A stretch of DNA of 33,767 nt from Prochlorococcaceae cyanobacterium jk18x1bzbins.87 (GTDB lineage Bacteria; Cyanobacteriota; Cyanobacteriia; PCC-6307; Cyanobiaceae). The stretch is taken from assembly GCA_022826535.1 (NCBI GenBank), contig JAJDUS010000071.1, positions 1 through 33,767 of the forward strand. The letters are read 5' to 3'. The notes below the pieces were generated by a model that was not told the DNA's origin, did no database searches, and saw only the letters and a list, made by a program, of their open reading frames with translations. Below, in pieces: positions 10,638 to 23,648 of the stretch (position 1 is the first letter of the stretch; each line of letters starts with the position of its first letter). A program made the position numbers and the translations under genes.

Positions 10638-13277
10638 CTAAGGAACCAGGTTCACCAGACGACCTGGCACCACGATCACCCGCCGTGGGGCGGTCCCCTT
10701 CAGCCACCGCCGGGCAATCTCGCTGCCACAGGCCAGGCGCTCCAGTTCCTCCTGGGAGGCGGCGCTGGGTACGGTCATGGTGCCCCGGGTTTTGCCCTGG
10801 ATCTGGATGACCACATCCCGCAACTCCTGTTTGAGGGCCTCCGGATCCCACTGGGGCCAGCGCTGGTTGTGAACACTGCCCGGCCCATCCAGTTGTCGCC
10901 AAAGCTCTTCCGCCAGGTGGGGGGCAAAGGGGGCCAGCAGCCGCAACAGGGCATCCATGGCCTCAACTTGCACAACAGGGGAGGCTTTGTCCATGTCCCC
11001 CAATCCGTTGGCCAGCTTCATGAGTTCAGACACGGCGGTGTTGAACTGATAGGCCCCATCCAGATCCTCGTCAATGGCCTGGATGGCGGTGTGGACACAG
11101 CGACGCATCCGGTGGTCAGTGGCGGTGAGCTCCGTTATGGGGCCGGGTTGGGTGTTGTTGAGCCCTCCTCCCCGCTGGCGGAAGCCTGCCACCAGGCGCC
11201 AGAGCCGCTGCAAAAAGCGGAACTGTCCCTCCACGTCCGCATCGCTCCATTCCAGATCCTTCTCCGGCGGTGCCTTGAAGAGAATGAACATCCGGGCCGT
11301 ATCGGCCCCATACCGGGCCACCACTGAGGCCGGGTCCACGCCGTTGAGCTTGGACTTGGACATCTTCTCAAAGAAGGCCTCCAGGGGCTGCCCATCCTCG
11401 GGATCTAATGGTTCTTCGGGGTCTTGAACCCGCTCCGGGGCCACATATTTCCCTGTGCGGGGATTGCGGTAGGTGATGGATTGCACCATGCCCTGGGTGA
11501 GCAGCCGTCGAAAGGGCTCACGGAACCCCAGGAGGCCCCGATCTGCCAAGGCCTTGGTGAGGAATCGGGAGTAGAGCAGGTGCAGGATGGCGTGTTCCAC
11601 CCCCCCCACGTATTGATCCACGGGCAGCCACCGGTCCACCTCCTTGCGCTGGAAGGCCTCCTGGGCATTGGTGGCGTCTGCATAGCGCAGGAAGTACCAA
11701 CTGGAGCACATGAACGTGTCCATGGTGTCGGTCTCCCGCTGGGCCGGGGTCCCACAGGAGGGACAGTTCACCTCCAGCCACCCCTTGGCCTTGGCCAGGG
11801 GGCTGCCCCCCTTGCCGGCCAAGGGCAGGTCCCGGGGCAATTCCACGGGAAGCTGGTCCTGGGGGACGGGCACAGCCCCACACTTGGGGCAGTGGATGAT
11901 GGGAATGGGGCATCCCCAGTAGCGCTGGCGTGACACCAGCCAATCCCGCAGGCGATAGATGGTTTTTTCCTCCCCAAGCTGCTGTTGGGCCAGTGCTGCT
12001 GTGATGCTGGCCTTGGCCTCCTGGCTGGACAGACCGTTGAAGTCCCCGGAATTCACCAGGATGCCTGCATCACAGAACGCCTCGTCCAATGCCGGGGGAT
12101 CCTGGCCATCGGGGGTGATGACCACCTTGATGGGCAGGCCATGGCGTTGGGCGAAGTGGAAATCACGGCCGTCATGGGCGGGAACCCCCATCACGGCGCC
12201 GGAGCCGTAGTCCAGCAGGACGTAGTCCGCAATCCAGACGGGAATCGGGTGTCCACTGAGGGGATGCCGCACGTGGGAACCAAGGGGAACACCCCGCTTG
12301 GGACGATCTTCCGCCGTGCGCTCCATGGTGCTGGTGCGTCCCATCTCGGTACGGAAAGCTGCCACTGTGGCCTGTTGTTCCGGCCGGGTCAGGCTGTCCA
12401 CAAGGGGATGCTCCGGCGCCAACACCATGTAAGTGACGCCAAAGAGGGTATCCGGCCGGGTGGTGAACACCTCCACCGCCCCTGTGTCCCTCCCATCGCC
12501 GGGGGCCATGGGAGGGAACAACACCTGCGTTCCGGTGGATCGACCAATCCAGTTGGCCTGCATGGTGCATACCCGCTCCGGCCAACCCGCCAACAGCGTC
12601 AAGTCATCCAGCAGATCCTTGACATAATGGGTAATCCCGAGGAACCACTGGCGCAGCAGGCGGCGCTCCACCAGGGCGCCGGAGCGCCAGGAGCGCCCTT
12701 GGCTGTCCACCTGCTCATTGGCCAACACGGTCTGATCCACCGGATCCCAGTTCACGGCGGCTTCCTTCTGGTAGGCCAGCCCCGCCGCGAAGAGTTCCAG
12801 GAAGATCCATTGGGTCCAGCGGTAATAATCCGGCTGGCAGGTGGTGACTTCCCGTTCCCAGTCAAGGGATAGCCCCAGGGCGTCCAGTTGGCCCCGCATC
12901 TGGGCAATATTTTGTTCTGTCCAGCGTCCTGGTTCCACGGAGCGCTCAATGGCGGCATTTTCTGCAGGCAGGCCAAAGGCGTCCCAACCCATGGGGTGGA
13001 GCACCGCCTTGCCTTTCATCCGCTGCACGCGGGCCACCACATCGGTAATGACGTAGTTGCGCACATGGCCCATGTGCAGGCTCCCCGAGGGGTAGGGAAA
13101 CATGGACAGGGCATAAAACGTGTCCTGTCCGGGTTGGGGCCTTGGTGTTTGATGCTGCCCACTGGCCCGCCAGTGCTGCTGCCAATGGGCCTCAATCCGG
13201 GTGGGAGCATAGGGCTCCTGCAACGACTGGGCCGGACCATGGTCCAGCAGGGAAGCTTTTGAGTCAGAGACGGCCAT
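10638..13277 (-). CDS. leuS: Leucyl-tRNA synthetase
   Basis: LeuS (879 residues, normal bacterial length) charges tRNA-Leu with leucine. The class I signatures are present: a HIGH-type HMGH at residues 68-71 within [15 protein letters not shown], and KMSKS at 638-642. The connecting and editing regions include [20 protein letters not shown] and [11 protein letters not shown] zinc-like Cys pair ([18 protein letters not shown]) and the C-terminal tRNA-binding domain also follow. It is flanked on both sides by small membrane/coiled-coil protein genes. No T-box or leader structure was noticed upstream. Confidence 0.97.
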
Positions 13278-13449
13278 GGCAGCTTACAGGGCCAGCATTG
13301 ACTGCCATGGTCCCATAGGGTGGGCGCCGGGGGCACGGTTTGGCAACCCCTGACGTGTGAAGACAAGGCGCCAGGCGGGATCTAGTCGAGACGCCGCCTC
13401 CACCGCCCGCCACTCCGCTGGCACGCCACGGAAGGGGGAAAGGCAATGT

Positions 13450-14343
13450 TCATTGTCCAGCCCTGGCTGCCAGAAGGGTCTCCAACACCCGATCCAGCCG
13501 TTCCCCCAGCGCCTGGCTATCCACTTTGAGTTCTGCCCTCAACGCCTGGTTATCGGCCTTGAGTTCTGCCCTCAGCGCCTGGTTATCAGCTTTGAGTTCC
13601 GCTTTGGTCTCATCCAGCCGTTCCGCCAACGCCTGGTTATCGGCTTTGAGTTCTGTCCTCAGCGCCTGGCTATCCGCTTTGAGTTCCGCTTTGGTCTCAT
13701 CCAGCCGTTCCGCCAACGCCTGGCTATCCGCTTTGAGTTCCGCCCTCAGCGCCTGGTTATCGGCTTTGAGTTCCGCTTTGGTCTCATCCAGCCGTTCCGC
13801 CAACGCCTGGTTATCCGCTTTGAGTTCCGCCCTCAGCGCCTGGTTATCGGCCTTGAGTTCCGTTTTGGTCTCATCCAGCCGTTCCGCCAACGCCTGGCTA
13901 TCCGCTTTGAGTTCCGCCCTCAGCGCCTGGTTATCGGCTTTGAGTTCCGTTTTGGTCTCATCCAGCCGTTTCGCCAACGCCTGGTTATCGGCCTTGAGTT
14001 CCGTTTTGGTCTCATCCAGCCGTTTCGCCAACGCCTGGTTATCGGCTTTGAGTTCTGCTTTGGTCTCCCTCAGCGCTTCTCTTTGGCGGGTTTCACTGGC
14101 CCTGATTTCTTCGGTGAGATGGGCGTTGCCATCTCTGATATCAGCCCTCAGGGACTGGAAGGACCCCATCCAGAGATTGGCCACCAGGGTGGCCACCCCC
14201 ACCAGGACGCTGATCACCGCCACCACCACCACAGGCTTCAACCATTCCCACCACCAGGACTTCGGCAGGGGAGAGCCAGGGGTTGTCTGGTCCTGCTGCT
14301 CAAGTGTTGGCGTTGGTGTTGGTGTTGGCGTGCTGGAGGTCAT
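13450..14343 (-). CDS. Membrane-anchored modular coiled-coil protein (hypothetical)
   Basis: From ATG 14343 the product has 297 residues. A Thr/Pro tail (TPTPTPTPT) is followed by a Trp-rich flank (WWWEWLK) and one hydrophobic helix (about 37-59). A polar linker (60-92) follows, then a repeat rod at 93-284 and a short end (DRVLETLLAARAGQ). The rod is a run of units of 18, 18, 29, 29, 29, 29 and 40 residues. Each is an 18-residue ETK(A/T)ELKADNQALAxRLD type unit, extended in the longer ones by 11-residue ELKADNQALRA inserts. Heptad and hendecad spacing predicts a nearly straight rod about 28 nm long. The short N-terminus is probably cytoplasmic and the rod on the other side, but this is inference. 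No function is known. The TTG at 14355 is an alternative start. Confidence 0.75.
   Translation of the reverse strand: MTSSTPTPTPTPTLEQQDQTTPGSPLPKSWWWEWLKPVVVVAVISVLVGVATLVANLWMGSFQSLRADIRDGNAHLTEEIRASETRQREALRETKAELKADNQALAKRLDETKTELKADNQALAKRLDETKTELKADNQALRAELKADSQALAERLDETKTELKADNQALRAELKADNQALAERLDETKAELKADNQALRAELKADSQALAERLDETKAELKADSQALRTELKADNQALAERLDETKAELKADNQALRAELKADNQALRAELKVDSQALGERLDRVLETLLAARAGQ
13492..14067 (-). repeat. Coding tandem repeats of 33/54/87 bp in the coiled-coil gene
   Basis: The repeats encode seven units of 18, 18, 29, 29, 29, 29 and 40 residues. The size rule is 18 plus a multiple of 11 residues (54 plus n times 33 bp). Units are nearly identical at DNA level, so copy number should vary between strains and may be collapsed in assemblies. 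Confidence 0.85.
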
Positions 14344-14403
14344 GGGCAGAAGCAACCCGAAATCATCCTAAGGTCAGCCCCACCCCCCCTGCCGCCGCCC
14401 GGA

Positions 14404-14430
14404 TTCTCCCCGCCATTACTGCGAAAGCAG
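14404..14430. repeat. Small palindromic intergenic repeat
   Basis: The sequence attactgc-gaaa-gcaggaat forms a hairpin with a GAAA tetraloop and one mismatch. It resembles the common attcccgc-gaaa-gcgggaat type of dispersed intergenic palindrome. A more diverged relative (attcctgc-tgcc-gcgggagt) lies near 14755-14775. Confidence 0.5.
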
Positions 14431-14435
14431 GAATC

Positions 14436-14700
14436 TGTTCTTCAGAAGCCGCCAGAAGGTTGTTCAACATCCGATCCGGGTTCCCCCAACCCCTGGCCAT
14501 CGGCCTTGTGTTCTGCTTTGATCTTCCTTAGCGCTTCTTTTTGGCGGGTGTCATGGTCCTGATCTCTTCGGTGGGATGGGTGCTGATCATGACCACCACC
14601 ACGGACTTCAACCATTCCCACCACCAGGCCCCCTGCAGGGAGGAGCCAGGGGTTGTCTGGTCCTGCTGCTCAAGTGTTGGCGTTGGCGTGTGGGGGTTAT
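14436..14700 (-). pseudogene. Decayed paralogue of the modular coiled-coil protein
   Basis: The minus-strand translation recovers pieces of the neighbouring gene in shifted frames: TPTPTLEQQDQTTPGSSL, then WWWEWLKSVVVV, then HPTEEIRT, then TRQKEALRKIKAEHKADGQGLGE. A frame change ends in DRMLNNLLAAS, which matches DRVLETLLAAR. Most of the membrane helix is deleted and the frame is broken. Only one repeat-like unit (KAEHKADGQGLGE) is present, against seven units in the intact gene. It lies immediately upstream of the intact gene in the same orientation. Confidence 0.7.
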
Positions 14701-15010
14701 GGGGGAAGCAACCCGGAAGAATCCTGGGCCAGCCCCCTCTTTCCTGCCCCCGTCATTCCTGCTGCCGCGGGAGTCCGCGATTTTTTCAGAGCGGGGAACC
14801 TTGCCAACGGGTTGCCACGGGGTTAGGATGCTGAGAAGCCCTTGTCTGCCTCTGCCACCCATGCATAGCTCAACAGCGAATGCTACCCCACTCCCAGCGC
14901 TTGCCTGCTTTGATGGAGCCGTAACAGGCATGAAGCCTGACCCTGAGACAGGCATGGTGAAGGGGGATGGCCAATTCGCGGCGGCGCACCGGACCACGGG
15001 GGCGCTCCCA

Positions 15011-18000
15011 ATGGCTGGACAATCTCCATCATCCGGCCTCCTTGTCTCCCGGCCTGCATCGTCCCGGTGCTTTGGCAGCCTTGCCCCTTCCTTTGTTGCT
15101 GCGGGTCTCCGTCTGGGGCGGGGTCTTGTGCCGGCGCTACTGTCCCTGCCGCCACTGGCTGTGGCGCTCCTTCTGTTGCCGGCCCCCGAGGCTGCTGCCC
15201 AGAGCCGTGGGGTAACGATTGTCGAAACAGGCGGCTCCACTGAGGTAAGCGAGGTGGCGGGGGAGGATACCTACACGGTGGTGCTGAACACCGATCCGTC
15301 AGCCAGTGTTGAGATTGCGGTCAGCTCCAGTAATGAGGCGGCAACGGTCAGCCCCGCCACATTGACCTTTACAGCCGGTGGGGACGGTTCCGGTTCGGTG
15401 GGTAACGGCAACTGGGCTGTGGCCCAGACGGTGACGGTCACCGGGGTGGATGACCTCCGCGACAACTTGGGGGCTCGCAGGCCCTCCATCCGCCACACCG
15501 CCACCTCAAGCCATAGCAGCTACGATAATATCACCATCCCGGATCTGAGAATCACGGTGCTGGACAATGAGACGTCGTCCGTCATCATCCACGAGTCCAA
15601 CGGTTTCACTAGCGTGACCGAAGCGGCAGGGAATATGCACACCGATACCTATAAGGTGTCGATCACCAGCGAACCATTCGTAGAGAGTGACCCTGTCAAG
15701 ATCATTATGACGAGAGACCCACTTGTGACAAACTTCGATTTCAACCCGAAGACATTGACCTTCAACGCCACCAACTGGAGCACGCCCCAGACGGTCACCG
15801 TCACCGGCGTGGATGATAGCGTGGACCAAACCAGTCTATCCGAGTCCATTGCCGTCAAGGGCGAGTCAGAGTACAGTGTCAATTACAAGACAACCTTCGA
15901 CTCGGTGGCAGTCAGGGTATTGGATGATGACAGCGTCGGTGTGGCCATTGTCGAGCCCAGCTACGCCGAGGGCGACGCCGTAGAGGTGACCGAGGCTCCT
16001 GGTCGGGACAACACCAATATTTATAGGGTGGTGCTGGAGAGCGCGCCATTAGGTACTGTCAGGATCGCCCCCGAATCCTCGGATACGACAGCCGCCACGG
16101 TTAGCCCGGCAACGTTGACCTTCACCCCATCCAACTGGAGCAGGCCCCAGATAGTGACCGTGACAGGTGTGAATGACCGGCAGCCCAATGCGGGCGGTAA
16201 GCGCTCCGCCCCTATCAACCACACCGTCACATCAACAGAGGATGAACGTTATAATGGTGTGACACATGAGGAAGGGGGGGATATCAGCGTCCCCCAGGTT
16301 AACGTCGATGTGATCGGTGTGGAGTCCGCCATCGTCCTCACCCACTCCAACGGCTCCACCACGGTGACCGAGGCCGATGGTGCAGGCCAGATCGATACCT
16401 ACACGGTGGCGCTGAACAACGCGATATCAACCAACGTCATCATCGAAATCCCCGAATTGTTTGCTGACCCATATAATAAACTTAATCTCATCAGAGTCAC
16501 TACCCCCGGCGGCACTCAGGACAGGGATAATAATGACGTAGCAGTAATGACCTTCACCAGTGCCAACTGGGACACGCCCCAGACAGTGACTGTTACCGGC
16601 CGCGATAACGAAATCGATCATCCGGAGAATAAATTTGACTTCACCATCACTCACACCGCCGTTTCATCACCCCCGAACTCCTACAATGGCCTCACCGCCG
16701 ATCTCGCTCTCACCTTCGTGAATGATGATGCTGACGTCGCCGGGGTGACCTTACGAGAGTCCAACGGTTCTACACGGGTGACCGAGGCGCCTGGTTTGCT
16801 CCAGAGCGATACCTACACGATCAGCCTCGACTCCGACGTATTGGTAAACGCAGTAAGGGTCATAGTCACATCCAGCGATGAGGATCGGTTACTGGTCGCT
16901 AGTGGCGTCGACTTCGAGATCCCAGGTGTAGAGATCATATTCTCAGATCCGGGACCCACGGCGTTTTGTAGCCTAAGTGGTGGACCAGGCGCGGTGGACA
17001 ATGAGTGTATAGTAAGGGTAACGGCTGTAGACGACACCGTGGACCAGGTTGGTAACAGCAGCGTGAGCATCAGCCACTCGATCTCCCTGCCTCTCCAAAT
17101 TAATGGGGTAGACTTCCCACTCAGCCCGTACGCAGACGTCGTCATCCCTGATGTCATCGCCACAGTGGTGGACGACGACAGGGTGGGCCTGATCACCAAC
17201 GAGACCAACGGCTTCACCTCCGTGACCGAAGCAGATGGCGTGACCCGCACGGATCAGTACACGTTGGCTTTGGCCGCCCTGCCAACAGCGGATGTTGAGA
17301 TCGCGATGGTCTCCGGCAATCCGGCAGCGGCCACAGTCAGCCCCGCCAGATTGACCTTCACCCCATCCAACTGGAACACGGCCCAGGCGGTGACGGTCAC
17401 CGCCGTGGACGATGCCACCCAGCAGATCAACAATCGCACCATCGCCATTACCAACATCGCCACGTCAACGGATACCCGCTACGACGCCCTCTCCTCCCGT
17501 ATCGTCGTCACGGTGGTGGATAATGACCATGGTCCCGGCTTAACCATCAGCCAGTCCGACGGTTCCACCGCAGTGACCGAGGCGGCTGCCGGCCGTACCG
17601 ATACCTACACGATGGTGCTGAATACCCAGCCAGCATCCAATGTGGTCATCGGCCCGGTCTCCAGCAAGACGAGTCCGTCGGGGGCCACAGTCAGCCCGGC
17701 ATCACTCACCTTCACCCCCACCAACTGGGATACGGCCCAGACGGTGACCGTCACCGCCGTGGACGACAACCTGGTCCAGGGCACCAGCCAAGCTGTCCTC
17801 ATTACCCATACGTTTATCTCAGGTGATCCTCAGTACAGCACCCTCGCCAACTATTTCCCCAGACTCGTCGTCTCGGTAGAGGACAATGAGAATTCTAGGT
17901 GGAGGATTGTGGAAAGTGACGGCAACACCCTGTTGACGGAAGCCCCTGGGGGCCGCACCGATACCTATACGGTGGCGATGATCAGTCAGGATTCGCAGAC

Positions 18001-21000
18001 AAGGACTCTGGAACCTGTCTCCAGTGATCCGGCAGTCGTCACGGTCAGTCCCGCCACCTTGACCTTCACCACCAGCGACTACTTCACCCCCCAGACGGTG
18101 ACCGTTACCGCCGTGGACGACAACCTGGACCAGAGTTCCCTCCGCACCGTGACCATCACCCACAATCTCACCGTCAATAATCCGCCCTACAGAATCGCCC
18201 TTGACGTCCTTGTGTTGGACGATGACACCGTGGGAGTCACCGTCACCGAATCCTTCGGCCCAACTGTTTACCAAGAAACCTTGGTGAGGGAGGGGGGCGA
18301 CACCGATACCTATGCGGTGGTGCTGGACACCCAGCCGTCACAGCGTGTGACCATCGTGCCCACCTCCAGCAATACGGGAACAGCCACAGTCCGCCCCGCC
18401 ACCTTGAGCTTCAGCACTGCCAACTGGAATCGTCCCCAGACGGTTACCGTCACCGCCGTGAATGATATCAGCAGCGGTAACCGCAGGGTCGTAATCCGCC
18501 ACACCGCCACCTCAAATGATGGCGACTACAATGGCATCGACATCCCCTCAGTCAACGTCAGGGTGTTGGATAATGATGGGCTGGTGATCACCTCCACCTC
18601 CGGGAGCCGCATTGGCAGCTTCTCATGCCCTCCTGGGGTAAGGTATGAGTATCCTAGTGGTACGCTCGTGTGCCCTTCTAGCGGCGTTCTCACCTTCAAT
18701 AGAGTCACTCTGGCTGAAAACGATGGCGATGTCACCAGCGAGACCTACAGGGTGGAGCTGGCCACAGAACCAAGCACTGACGTGCTCGTCGAGGTTACCT
18801 CCAGTGAGATGGAAGTCGCCATGGCGAGCCCCGCCACCCTGACCTTCACCCAATCCGACTGGAGCACACCCCAGACAGTAACCGTCACCGCTGTGGACGA
18901 CATCGTAGACCAGAAGACCAACCGCCGCAGCGCCGTCATCACCCACACCGTCAACTCAACCGATGAGACCTACAACGCCATCACCTCTGACATTAACGTC
19001 ACCGTGATAGATGATGGGGACACTGTGAACCATTTCGGTCCACAACTGAATTTCGTCTCAACCGCCTACACAGGTGGCGAGGCTGCGGACCTTCGCACGG
19101 TCAACGTGGCCCTGAGCGTTACCCCAACCTACGATGTAGATGGAGTCGACGTCGAAGTCATGTACACTGTGACCGGCACGGCCAGCTTCAATGAAGACTT
19201 CCTGATTCCTTCAGTGGCACCGTTCAATCCACCAGACCCCGTTAGTGAAAACTTAGGAAGAAGATTGGTGGGCGATACTCCGCCAGCTAACACTCTGGTG
19301 GGCACGGTGACCCTGTCGGCTTCTGCAGAGACCATTTCCATTCCCGTCACCATCCTGGATGACTCTATGGAAGAGTCCGATGAGACCATCGTCCTCACTT
19401 TGCTTTCCGATATTCCTGGCCCCTCCACGGTGGGCCCACAGGATAGCACCACCATCACCATCCTGGATAATGACAGCCCGCCACCACCACCCATCACCAC
19501 CCCGCCTCCCTCGGCCCCTGTGGTGAGCATTACGGGCGGCCCTGACATCATGGAGGGCGGTGACGCCGTCTTTACCATGACCGCAGCACCCGCGCCCGCA
19601 ACAGGGGAGACCATCAACGTCAATGTGACCATCAGCGACAGCGGCACCTTTGCCAGAAGTGGCCAGACCGGTAACCGCATGATCACCATCGACGACACCG
19701 GCATGGCCCAATTCACGGTGTTCACTGACAACGACAGCACCCAGGAGCAGGACGGCACCATCACCGCCACCGTGCAAAGGGGAAGCGGCTACAGACTCCA
19801 TCCCAGCGACGCCTTGGCATTGGTCATGGTGAGTGACAATGAACTGGCGCTGGTGTTTGGCGATGCCACCAGCCTGATGGTCCATGGAGGGGGCAAAGAC
19901 TCCTACACCATCGCACTGGATAACCAGCCCATGTCGGGTGATCTGACCGTGACCATCATCGGCCATGAAAACACGCACCTGACTGCTGATCCCACCACCC
20001 TCACCTTTACCAGCTCCAACTGGAACACTCCCCAGACCGTCACCCTCACCGCAGCAAAGAATGCCGATGACGCCCGGATCATCCTGACACATCGGGCCAG
20101 GGGCACCAACTATCAAGGCCTGACCGCCACTGTGGATGTGACAGTGGTGGCCGTGGATCCGGTGCCCACAAAGGCGTTGCACCTGCGCTTTGGCCGCACC
20201 CTCTCCCAACAGGTGGTGGATGCCCTGCAAGACCGCTTTGCCACCCTTCCCACAGAAGGCGGCCTGCAAGTCGCCGTTGCCGGGGAGACCATCACCGACG
20301 CCACGCCGTTGGCGGAACATGAAGGGGTCCTCTCCAAAGCCCTGGGCTTTGAGAACGTCACCACCCGCCAGTTGGTGCAAGGCTCCTCCTTCAGCTTTGC
20401 CCCGGAACAGGAGGGGGTAGCCCCCCGCCTGGCCTTCTGGGGCGAGGGGGCCTTCTCCTCCTTCAATGGAGAACAGGACGACTTCTCCCTTGACGGGGAC
20501 GTGACCACCCTCCTGGTGGGGGCAGATTGGGGAACCGAACGGTGGCGGGCCGGGGCCGCCCTCACCCGGTCCTGGAGCAACGGCTCCTATGAGGGGGACA
20601 ACGACGCCGATGGGGACGCCAGCAACACCTTGACAGGGCTGTTCCCCTATGGCCACTATGCCCTCTCCCCGCGGCTGGGGATCTGGGGCACCGTCGGCTA
20701 CGGCTGGGGTGAACTCTCCCTCGAACCCGATGACGGGGAGGACTACACCCCCAGCACCACCATGACCATGGCCGCCTTGGGTATTGATGGGGTGGTCCTG
20801 GATGGGGGCAGCGAAGGCTTCAGCGTCAACACCACCGCCGATGTGCTGACCCTGAAAACCTCCTCGGAAGACGTGGACGGGTTGGACTCTTCAGAAGGCA
20901 ACCTCTCCCGCATTCGGGTGGGGCTGGAAGCCACCAGACCCCTCCCCCTGGACCAGGGCGCCTCCCTCCTCCCCTCCATGGAGGTGGGCATCCGACAGGA

Positions 21001-21544
21001 CAGTGGAGATGCAGAATTCGGCTTTGGCATGGATCTGGGGGCCGGTATCCTCTGGATGGATCCGGAGCGGGGCATCAGTGGCGAGCTGAAGGGACGCACC
21101 CTTCTCCTCCATACGGAAGAGGACTTCCAGGAGCAAAGCCTGGCCTTCTCCTTCTCCTGGGAACCCTCCCCACACAATCGCGGCCCCTCCCTCTCCATGG
21201 GCCACACCATGGGCGCCGTCCCATCGGATGGCATGGATGCCCTGCTGAACTCCACCACCATCAAAGGGCTGGACATTGCCTCCGGCAACGGGCAGCAGTT
21301 TGAAGCAGAGTTGGCCTATGGCTTCTCCGCCTACAACGACCGCCTCTCCTTCATCCCGGCCCTGGGGCTGGCCCTCTCCCCCGCCAGCAGGAACTACAGC
21401 CTGCTCTGGTCCTTGGCGCCCTACTCCGACCAGGCCCAGGCTGATCCTTGGGAAGTTTCCCTGGAGGGTGAGCGGCAGGAGAAGAACGCTCCCGCCTCAC
21501 CGGTGGACCATTCCCTGAAGCTGCGCTTCTCCACCCTCTTCTGA
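15011..21544 (+). CDS. Giant autotransporter adhesin with Calx-beta-like repeats and beta-barrel
   Basis: From ATG 15011 the protein has about 2,177 residues. A hydrophobic signal segment (about residues 40-63) ends in EAAAQ. The passenger carries about ten modules of 110-150 residues, each with SxGxTxVTEA, DTYTVxLxxxP, VSPATLTFTxxNWxTPQTVTVT and a VxDxD end. A clear Calx-beta module (about 1337-1490), a Pro-rich linker, a second Calx-beta-like module and one more repeat follow. The last roughly 455 residues form a type V beta-barrel domain with alternating strands, ending in KLRFSTLF with a terminal Phe. It is probably a surface-displayed adhesin or calcium-binding stalk. The start is uncertain: the frame is open from 14576, and ATGs at 14828 and 14930 are possible. 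The only Cys residues in the mature part are two close pairs. Confidence 0.88.
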   Translation: MAGQSPSSGLLVSRPASSRCFGSLAPSFVAAGLRLGRGLVPALLSLPPLAVALLLLPAPEAAAQSRGVTIVETGGSTEVSEVAGEDTYTVVLNTDPSASVEIAVSSSNEAATVSPATLTFTAGGDGSGSVGNGNWAVAQTVTVTGVDDLRDNLGARRPSIRHTATSSHSSYDNITIPDLRITVLDNETSSVIIHESNGFTSVTEAAGNMHTDTYKVSITSEPFVESDPVKIIMTRDPLVTNFDFNPKTLTFNATNWSTPQTVTVTGVDDSVDQTSLSESIAVKGESEYSVNYKTTFDSVAVRVLDDDSVGVAIVEPSYAEGDAVEVTEAPGRDNTNIYRVVLESAPLGTVRIAPESSDTTAATVSPATLTFTPSNWSRPQIVTVTGVNDRQPNAGGKRSAPINHTVTSTEDERYNGVTHEEGGDISVPQVNVDVIGVESAIVLTHSNGSTTVTEADGAGQIDTYTVALNNAISTNVIIEIPELFADPYNKLNLIRVTTPGGTQDRDNNDVAVMTFTSANWDTPQTVTVTGRDNEIDHPENKFDFTITHTAVSSPPNSYNGLTADLALTFVNDDADVAGVTLRESNGSTRVTEAPGLLQSDTYTISLDSDVLVNAVRVIVTSSDEDRLLVASGVDFEIPGVEIIFSDPGPTAFCSLSGGPGAVDNECIVRVTAVDDTVDQVGNSSVSISHSISLPLQINGVDFPLSPYADVVIPDVIATVVDDDRVGLITNETNGFTSVTEADGVTRTDQYTLALAALPTADVEIAMVSGNPAAATVSPARLTFTPSNWNTAQAVTVTAVDDATQQINNRTIAITNIATSTDTRYDALSSRIVVTVVDNDHGPGLTISQSDGSTAVTEAAAGRTDTYTMVLNTQPASNVVIGPVSSKTSPSGATVSPASLTFTPTNWDTAQTVTVTAVDDNLVQGTSQAVLITHTFISGDPQYSTLANYFPRLVVSVEDNENSRWRIVESDGNTLLTEAPGGRTDTYTVAMISQDSQTRTLEPVSSDPAVVTVSPATLTFTTSDYFTPQTVTVTAVDDNLDQSSLRTVTITHNLTVNNPPYRIALDVLVLDDDTVGVTVTESFGPTVYQETLVREGGDTDTYAVVLDTQPSQRVTIVPTSSNTGTATVRPATLSFSTANWNRPQTVTVTAVNDISSGNRRVVIRHTATSNDGDYNGIDIPSVNVRVLDNDGLVITSTSGSRIGSFSCPPGVRYEYPSGTLVCPSSGVLTFNRVTLAENDGDVTSETYRVELATEPSTDVLVEVTSSEMEVAMASPATLTFTQSDWSTPQTVTVTAVDDIVDQKTNRRSAVITHTVNSTDETYNAITSDINVTVIDDGDTVNHFGPQLNFVSTAYTGGEAADLRTVNVALSVTPTYDVDGVDVEVMYTVTGTASFNEDFLIPSVAPFNPPDPVSENLGRRLVGDTPPANTLVGTVTLSASAETISIPVTILDDSMEESDETIVLTLLSDIPGPSTVGPQDSTTITILDNDSPPPPPITTPPPSAPVVSITGGPDIMEGGDAVFTMTAAPAPATGETINVNVTISDSGTFARSGQTGNRMITIDDTGMAQFTVFTDNDSTQEQDGTITATVQRGSGYRLHPSDALALVMVSDNELALVFGDATSLMVHGGGKDSYTIALDNQPMSGDLTVTIIGHENTHLTADPTTLTFTSSNWNTPQTVTLTAAKNADDARIILTHRARGTNYQGLTATVDVTVVAVDPVPTKALHLRFGRTLSQQVVDALQDRFATLPTEGGLQVAVAGETITDATPLAEHEGVLSKALGFENVTTRQLVQGSSFSFAPEQEGVAPRLAFWGEGAFSSFNGEQDDFSLDGDVTTLLVGADWGTERWRAGAALTRSWSNGSYEGDNDADGDASNTLTGLFPYGHYALSPRLGIWGTVGYGWGELSLEPDDGEDYTPSTTMTMAALGIDGVVLDGGSEGFSVNTTADVLTLKTSSEDVDGLDSSEGNLSRIRVGLEATRPLPLDQGASLLPSMEVGIRQDSGDAEFGFGMDLGAGILWMDPERGISGELKGRTLLLHTEEDFQEQSLAFSFSWEPSPHNRGPSLSMGHTMGAVPSDGMDALLNSTTIKGLDIASGNGQQFEAELAYGFSAYNDRLSFIPALGLALSPASRNYSLLWSLAPYSDQAQADPWEVSLEGERQEKNAPASPVDHSLKLRFSTLF
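15207..19018 (+). repeat. Ten diverged passenger repeats of the autotransporter
   Basis: Repeat boundaries are marked by VxDxD/VLDNE-type ends near 15570, 15930, 16320, 16730, 17180, 17525, 17885, 18225, 18575 and 19018. The most conserved DNA block encodes NWxTPQTVTVT. The units differ enough to resist simple homologous collapse, unlike the coiled-coil repeats. An eleventh unit lies after the Calx-beta modules at about 19850-20155. Confidence 0.8.
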
Positions 21545-21632: not shown

Positions 21633-23648
21633 TCAAGACGAGCCCACCAGCTTTTGTCTTAAGATTCGAATGCGATCCCTCAACTTGGCTGCTTCCTCAA
21701 ATTTCAAGTCCTGGGCACAGGCTTTCATCTGATCTTCCAGTTGACCAATGCGTTCGGGAAGGGCAGAAAGTGGTATGGCCTCCTTCTCCGCCTCTACTGT
21801 TGCGGTTTCCAATTGGTTCTGGCTCAGTTGCCTGGATAACTCCAAATCTGCTAAAATGGGGTTGCCCTTGGTTTTGGTGGCCACTGCCTGGGGGGTGATA
21901 TTGTGGTTGGCGTTGTACTCCTGTTGCACTTGACGGCGCCGCTCCGTTTCCTCAATGGCCTTGGCCATGGAATCCGTTAACTGATCCCCATACAGGATGG
22001 CCATCCCCTGCACATGCCGTGCTGCACGGCCAATGGTTTGAATCAGGGAGCGGTCCGACCGGAGAAAACCCTCCTTATCCGCATCAAAAATTGCCACCAG
22101 AGACACTTCCGGCAGATCCAACCCCTCCCGCAGAAGATTGACGCCCACCAGCACGTCATAGGCCCCATGGCGAAGATCCTGAATCAGCTCAATCCGCTCA
22201 ATGGAGTGGATTTCCGAATGGAGGTACTGCACCTTGACGCCATGGTTGGCCAGGTAGTCGCACAGGTCCTCGGCCATGCGCTTGGTGAGGGTGGTCACCA
22301 ATGTGCGCTCATCACGCCCACTGCGGTCCCGAATCTCCCCCAGCAGGTCATCCACCTGCCCCCCACTGGGTCGCACACTGATCTCAGGATCCACAACGCC
22401 AGTGGGGCGGATCACCTGGCGCCTGACGGCATCCCCAGAGCGCCCCAGTTCCCAATCCCCAGGCGTGGCGGACACAAAGATGGCCTGCTTCACCTTCCTC
22501 CAGAACTCCTCCGCCTTCAGGGGCCGGTTATCCGCCGCACTGGGCAGGCGGAAGCCGTGGTCAATGAGCACCTGCTTGCGGGAACGATCACCATTATACA
22601 TGCCTTGCAGTTGAGGACAGGTGACATGACTCTCATCCACCACCAGCAGCCAATCATCAGTGAAATAGTCCACCAAGCATTCTGGCGGGGTGCCCGCTGG
22701 TCGGCCCGTGAGATGGCGGGCGTAGTTTTCCACCCCGTTGCAATAGCCCATCTCCTGAAGCATTTCCAGGTCATACCTGGTGCGCTGTTCCAGACGTTGC
22801 GCCTCAACCAATTGCTGGCGCTGGTGTAGAACATCCAGTCGGTCCGCCAGTTCCTCACGAATGGCCACCAACGCAGCCGCAAGGCGCTCCTTGGGTGTCA
22901 CAAAATGTTTTGCAGGATAGATGCTGATCCTTTCCAGGCTTTTCAAAAGCTCACCTGTGATGGGGTTAACGTAGCGGATGGCCTCAATCTCATCACCAAA
23001 AAACTCGATTCTGATGAGACGGTCTTCATAGGCAGGCCCAATCTCCAGCACATCTCCCCGTAACCGGAAACGCCCCCGGCTGATTTCCAGATCGTTACGG
23101 TTGTATTGGTTATTCACCAAAGCCCGCAGGGTCTGACGCAGATTAATTGTCTCACCCACACAAAAGGGCACCGCCGCCTTAAGATATTCAGCCGGTATCC
23201 CTAAACCATAAATACAGCTAATCGAGGCCACAACAATCACATCCCTGCGCTCAAATAACGATCGGGTTGCCGAGTGGCGTAGCATGTCTATTTCTTCATT
23301 GATGGATGCTGTTTTGGCGATATAGGTATCTGTGGAGGGTACATAGGCCTCCGGCTGATAGTAGTCATAGTAAGAGATAAAGTATTCTACGGCATTATTG
23401 GGGAAAAATTCCCGCAGCTCATTGCAAAGCTGGGCGGCAAGCGTCTTGTTGTGGGCCAGAACAAGGGTGGGCTTGCCCGTTTGGGCAATCACATTGGCAA
23501 TGGTGAAGGTTTTGCCCGTGCCCGTGGCGCCCAGAAGGGTCTGATAGGGACACTGACCCTGAACCCCATGGACCAGCTCCACAATGGCCCGAGGCTGGTC
23601 CCCCATGGGCTGATAGGGGGCCGTAAGGGCAAACTGGCCCATCTCCAA
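21633..23648 (-). CDS. uvrB: UvrABC excision nuclease subunit B
   Basis: UvrB (669-671 residues) is the DNA-damage verifying helicase-like subunit of nucleotide excision repair. It shows Walker A GATGTGKT (about 40-47) and the beta-hairpin region with [19 protein letters not shown]. The Walker B box appears as VVDESH. Helicase motifs such as TRRMAEDL-like [10 protein letters not shown] and [15 protein letters not shown] are present. The C-terminal UVR motif for UvrC contact is [24 protein letters not shown]. The frame opens at TTG 23648, one codon before the ycf23 stop ends, and ATG 23642 is two codons later. Either start could be used. It is convergent with the adhesin and directly follows ycf23. 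Confidence 0.96.

Follow-up and report, generated by a model that had tools for sequence, protein, structure and literature searches.

Type Va autotransporters (PF03797; NalP, Hbp, AIDA-I, EstA, EspP and BrkA) comprise a signal peptide, an N-terminal passenger, a helix and a C-terminal barrel with an aromatic end, and the passengers characterised so far are mostly beta-helical. The inverse autotransporters of type Ve, such as intimin and invasin, anchor an Ig-like rod by a barrel that is N-terminal. Here we describe a protein of 2,177 amino acid residues, encoded by an uninterrupted open reading frame (ORF; ATG at 15011, stop codon at 21542-21544, plus strand) in a stretch of 33,767 bp, hereafter the window, which is the entire contig C136 (JAJDUS010000071.1) of a draft cyanobacterial genome (2.49 Mb, 145 contigs, 95% complete). 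The protein has the parts of a type Va autotransporter in the same order, but differs in having a barrel of about 370 residues with 18 predicted strands instead of 12, a cyanobacterial host and an Ig/Calx-beta-like passenger. It resembles type Ve proteins as a barrel-anchored Ig-like rod (the fold of its repeats matches, among others, Intimin D0-D1), but its barrel is C-terminal, which places it outside that type. We propose, with a probability of about 0.75, that it belongs to a lineage-specific repertoire of type V (autotransporter-like) surface proteins with an adhesin or recognition role in sponges.

Autotransporter domains in sponge symbionts are already reported. An earlier study links them, together with eukaryotic-like proteins, to these organisms: 'Ca. 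S. feldmannii' 277cV has three proteins of the FN3/cadherin/autotransporter kind, and SP3_1976 is the example from 'Ca. S. spongiarum' (PMC6506613). These proteins share with the one described here a modular eukaryotic-like passenger and an autotransporter domain in a sponge-symbiont Synechococcus, but the parts of that account considered here report neither Calx-beta repeats nor a family of about 50 copies (PMC6506613). They are probably members of the same family, since homologous barrels are present in the sister genome G057, which we infer to be that of 277cV. In a 2016 survey the highest number of type Va systems in any one genome was 21, reached in Chlamydiae (PMC4793230), likewise a large, lineage-specific family in a host-associated bacterium, although with other passengers and in another phylum; moreover, the 51 barrel 3' ends counted in our genome include many decayed ones, whereas the chlamydial figure refers to 21 predicted functional genes (PMC4793230). 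For the huge paralogous family, its restriction to sponge symbionts and its enlarged barrel, no earlier report was found in the literature searched, most subscription papers lying outside it.

One chain contains a signal of the Sec type, a beta-sandwich rod and, at its C-terminus, a barrel with homology to the translocators of autotransporters, all well supported (Table 1). The signal peptide was assigned by eye: the hydrophobic sequence ends in AAA-Q, with putative cleavage after residue ~63. A profile made from the protein's own modules delimited 11 modules of about 115 residues each, and an AlphaFold2 (AF2) model of two of them showed tandem beta-sandwiches with an Ig-like fold (pLDDT 85). 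The Ig-like structural neighbours that rank best for this model include NCX1 CBD1 (Z 9.9-10.0), one of the founding Calx-beta domains, but PapD-like chaperones and MSP domains score equally well; it is because of this tie that we describe the modules of the window copy as Ig/Calx-beta-like and claim no more. Pfam Calx-beta (PF03160) matched residues 1430-1488 with 16 bits, against a cut-off of 27. Canonical Calx-beta domains are present in the paralogue C120 (E 2.8e-25, far over the cut-off), and copies in the genomes G005 and G006 exceed the cut-off as well. No NCBIfam family matched the 2,177-residue protein, and searches of PDB sequences with the whole protein, a barrel profile and a repeat profile gave no significant match. 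The preliminary description, which had proposed a signal peptide, about ten diverged beta-sandwich-like modules, then a Pro-rich linker, and a barrel ending in Phe at the C-terminus, agrees with what we found; its 'true' Calx-beta modules hold in a loose sense only, as a likeness of fold, the Pfam match remaining below the cut-off.

Table 1. Coordinates of the features in the window; HMM, hidden Markov model.
Feature	Position	Strand	Residues	Basis
Autotransporter-like surface protein, 2,177 aa	15011..21544	+		open frame, family profile, paralogues
Signal peptide, long n-region (~46 aa ahead of hydrophobic core), putative cleavage after AAA	15011..15199	+		sequence
Ig/Calx-beta-like module 1	15209..15571	+	67-187	repeat HMM
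Module 2	15578..15931	+	190-307	repeat HMM
Module 3	15947..16318	+	313-436	repeat HMM
Module 4	16331..16729	+	441-573	repeat HMM
Module 5, diverged, i-E 1e-14	16742..17086	+	578-692 (weak)	repeat HMM
Module 6	17186..17527	+	726-839	repeat HMM; AF2 beta-sandwich
Module 7	17537..17890	+	843-960	repeat HMM; AF2 beta-sandwich
Module 8	17900..18226	+	964-1072	repeat HMM
Module 9	18233..18577	+	1075-1189	repeat HMM
Module 10	18584..19015	+	1192-1335	repeat HMM
Calx-beta C-terminal half (PF03160, below cut-off)	19298..19474	+	1430-1488	Pfam E 0.012
Pro-rich linker	19475..19519	+	~1489-1503	sequence
Calx-like module ahead of last repeat; paralogue C95 has a like segment ahead of its barrel	19523..19840	+		sequence comparison
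Module 11	19844..20155	+	1612-1715	repeat HMM
Alpha-helix ahead of barrel, candidate pore helix	20162..20242	+		AF2 model
Outer-membrane beta-barrel, 18 predicted strands, beta-signal-like end ...LKLRFSTLF	20426..21535	+		AF2, PDB comparison, PF03797 on paralogues
Another (second) member of the family, with signal peptide and 3 modules, cut short by right contig end	31901..33766	+		profile/family searches

The barrel ends with the sequence ...SLKLRFSTLF, and its AF2 model, built from 30 family sequences (pLDDT 81, pTM 0.72), has an N-terminal helix at 9-35 followed by 18 strands. The structural ranking of this model was led by autotransporters, with Z-scores of 18.1 (NalP), 17.4 (Hbp), 17.1 (AIDA-I), 17.1 (EstA) and 16.6 (EspP). 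The window copy itself has no match to PF03797, but four places in the same genome, all family members (C29, C145, C37 and C108), exceed the Autotransporter cut-off; in C29 and C145, whose barrels are 67-68% identical to that of the window, the match has an E of 1.1e-10 and covers profile positions 1-208 of 255. The earlier idea that this picocyanobacterial protein is type V-like stands, with the amendment that the barrel is predicted to be larger than the classical one. The modelled barrel reads as homologous to type Va translocators with an enlargement and, since a candidate pore helix is combined with 18 strands, we regard the protein as an enlarged autotransporter-like variant and not as a standard type Va member. 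The strand number, and the weak match of the window copy to OMP_b-brl (E 0.0003, below the Pfam cut-off), would also suit a barrel that serves as an anchor only, the passenger being exported by another route; we consider this improbable, since paralogues exceed the Autotransporter cut-off and autotransporters head the structural ranking, pre-barrel helix included.

The preliminary description had treated the gene as a single unusual autotransporter, but it is one of about 51 family loci in its genome. Searches of this genome gave more than 150 matches with the whole protein and 89 with the barrel; placed on retrieved stretches of its DNA, these resolved into 51 distinct barrel 3' ends, 34 of which keep one reading frame through to a proper stop codon. 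A barrel that is whole and unbroken within its contig is present in five copies (window, C15, C26, C95 and C120); some 20 others stay open up to a contig end (about 25 open in all as far as visible), about 14 retain a 5' part, and at least 15 are decayed by frameshifts or stops. Three ORFs are whole from start to stop, those of the window (2,177 residues), C15 (up to 2,480) and C120 (up to 1,599). At or near the stop codon of many copies (C108, C25, C142, C32, C60, C107, C24, C22, C51, C9 and C135) there is a related sequence of about 100 bp (TGATCCTTACCCTTCTGCAGGCAAG...CACTGTCCCATGGGTAGGGTCTCC), possibly the boundary of a duplication unit or a common 3' untranslated region.

The passengers of the family are assembled from leucine-rich repeat (LRR), Calx-beta, FN3 and Ig-like modules. 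In several of them, leucine-rich repeats with the pattern LSSLPAGVFDKLTSL come first (C89, C133, C127, C28 and C124), and TLR/VLR-like leucine-rich repeats (SLPAGVFDKLTSL) start the passengers of L047, L078, L095, L096 and L097, after a common signal-peptide module. Leucine-rich repeats, Calx-beta-like repeats and barrel are found in one chain in L115 of G005 (1,826 residues) and L112 of G057 (2,192 residues), and in L101 of G006 the barrel is joined to FN3, Ig-like and Calx-beta modules.

The named relatives of the gene belong to 'Candidatus Synechococcus spongiarum' SH4, Synechococcus sp. SB0662/SB0668 and a Prochlorococcaceae metagenome-assembled genome, which places the source genome in the sponge-symbiont picocyanobacterial clade. 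Barrel matches were obtained in all ten genomes of this genus (the 'Ca. Synechococcus spongiarum' clade), weak or few in G001 and G007, with identities of 57-72% over near-full-length alignments within most of the genus and lower ones in G006; judging from these alignments, the recurrence goes far beyond chance. Among the 201 Cyanobiaceae genomes searched, the sister genome G057 was the sole positive outside the genus, and the family was found in none of the other 190, nor by profile search in any of 385 genomes of other Cyanobacteriota, two samples that partly overlap. Orthologues common in free-living strains, which would have spoken against a host-associated role as first suggested, were not found among the genomes searched, nor did the structure prediction leave the C-terminus without a barrel. 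No relatives of the barrel were detected on plasmids or in the viral contigs searched; we suspect proteobacterial relatives, as a lead only. The locus of the window is itself lineage-specific: uvrB and leuS loci are present in all ten genomes of the genus, the barrel adjoins uvrB only in the source genome (some stretches from other genomes stop near uvrB), and G005 has small barrel remnants beside leuS.

In the barrel tree, lineage-specific clusters occur together with clear cross-genome orthologues, such as C26 and L033 of G004, which points to ongoing duplication on an older base. Full-length pairs within the genome average 76% identity, whereas copies at different loci share tracts of 400-1,850 bp with 93-98% identical DNA. 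Identity is patchy (p<0.05) in 31% of within-genome pairs versus 10% of cross-genome pairs, and it is uniform between C26 and L033. These alignments suggest that recombination between copies is likely, but a strict global run/permutation test (GENECONV-like) gave p 0.034 for the source genome, 0.077 for G4 and 0.21 pooled, and for this reason we do not claim gene conversion. The identical tracts and the patchiness, together with the decayed fragments, would fit multigene antigenic or recognition variation, in which recombination among barrels, repeats and pseudogene fragments reshuffles the passengers, and symbiont populations thereby vary the surface that sponge phagocytes encounter. We hold this to be unlikely, given the weak run test, the fact that recent duplication could yield like patches, and the lack of a strong tract in the window copy, no expression site or switching signal having come to light. 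A further step, that the recombining repertoire of tens of enlarged 18-strand autotransporters with LRR, Calx-beta and FN3 passengers acts as a variable code for symbiont identity or against phagocytosis that the sponge reads, is a speculation to which we give low odds.

Several observations weigh against an autotransporter-like adhesin repertoire. The window copy exceeds no curated Autotransporter or Calx-beta cut-off. The alignments with autotransporters reach residues 1-379 of the barrel model only, so that the last five strands (14-18, residues 386-466) are uncovered and extra; Foldseek TM-scores are low (~0.3); and the model has 18 strands, against 12 in the classical barrel. Most paralogues are interrupted by contig ends, few whole genes being readable, and the genome contains more than 40 remnants similar to insertion sequence (IS) 5 and many pseudogenes, so that some copies may be non-functional. 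These remnants and the many frameshifted or truncated copies are what a mostly selfish or neutral expansion would leave, with IS-driven duplication in a genome under degradation and few copies still functional; nevertheless, several copies (window, C15 and C120) still have a long open frame that includes signal peptide and barrel, and the barrel protein sequence is conserved across the genus, which makes such an expansion very unlikely as the main explanation. The remnants are stretches of about 870 bp of an IS5-family-like transposase (DUF4096, DDE_Tnp; L084:747-1617 and more than 40 other places in the source genome, G000), mostly 80-89% identical to the query; their dispersal genome-wide speaks against them as specific carriers of the family.

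We therefore retain a repertoire of cell-surface adhesins or recognition proteins, in which the predicted secretion is well supported and function is what we infer. The Sec machinery would carry the protein over the inner membrane and Omp85/BAM would insert the barrel; the genome encodes one Omp85 protein (PF01103, E 4.8e-54, at C90). The helix would thread the pore, the passenger moving past it, and the passenger would be displayed on the cell surface as a long rod, still attached. As no sign of release is seen in the sequence, a cell-attached adhesin or recognition rod, which would face sponge cells or matrix, is preferred over secretion. The role that most economically fits the sponge-only distribution and the eukaryotic-like modules is to adhere to sponge cells or matrix or to modulate phagocytosis, and the attachment or escape from phagocytosis proposed at the outset seems plausible. 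As a sponge-symbiosis trait, the family would have been gained or expanded within the 'Ca. Synechococcus spongiarum'/'feldmannii' lineages, with duplication enlarging its repertoire, pseudogenisation eroding it and the copies probably recombining to some extent.

The gene is flanked by leuS (10638-13277, minus strand) and uvrB (21633-23648, minus strand), and its surroundings are otherwise made up of housekeeping genes (pyrE, queC, apsK, dxs, the pyruvate dehydrogenase E2 acetyltransferase subunit and tRNA-Met), in agreement with the chromosomal setting described before. An in-frame ATG is also present upstream, at 14576, but a start at 15011 or slightly later is favoured because 14522-15010 is similar to part of the ORF 13357-14562. 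No long mononucleotide tract of the phase-variation type is visible around the start codon at 15011. The plus-strand ORF 13357-14562 was dropped as a partner gene: the minus strand encodes there (13450-14355) a membrane-anchored coiled-coil protein with repeats of ~29 residues (ELKADNQAL...RLDETK) and a DNA period of 87 bp, of which a diverged partial copy sits immediately ahead of the autotransporter start. The left end of the contig is also repeat-limited, since positions 1-281 are 96.8% identical to C141:43-323.

A separate observation concerns RpoC1, the gamma subunit of RNA polymerase (C87:27872-30718; L094:2873-5719, L121), in which an in-frame insert of ~300 residues (~157-457) contains two Calx-beta-like repeats and a SAP domain (E 4.5e-8). 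In all nine genomes of the genus that gave an RpoC1 match the alignment runs across the insert (in one the gene has internal stop codons, in another it is split over two contigs), and the ten tested genomes of other genera, G057 included, lack it; on these comparisons it is genus-specific, and it merits separate study.

Many contigs break off within the family, which explains in part why assemblies of these genomes fall into hundreds of pieces. If confirmed, the 18-strand barrel would widen the architecture of type V secretion. How sponges distinguish symbiotic cyanobacteria from those that they eat is not yet settled, and this family is the kind of candidate that is wanted: predicted to be surface-exposed, modular, expanded and present in every sampled genome of the sponge-associated genus. 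A surface-protein family of about 50 copies, found among the cyanobacteria searched only in sponge-symbiont lineages, is for that reason a strong candidate for the host interface.

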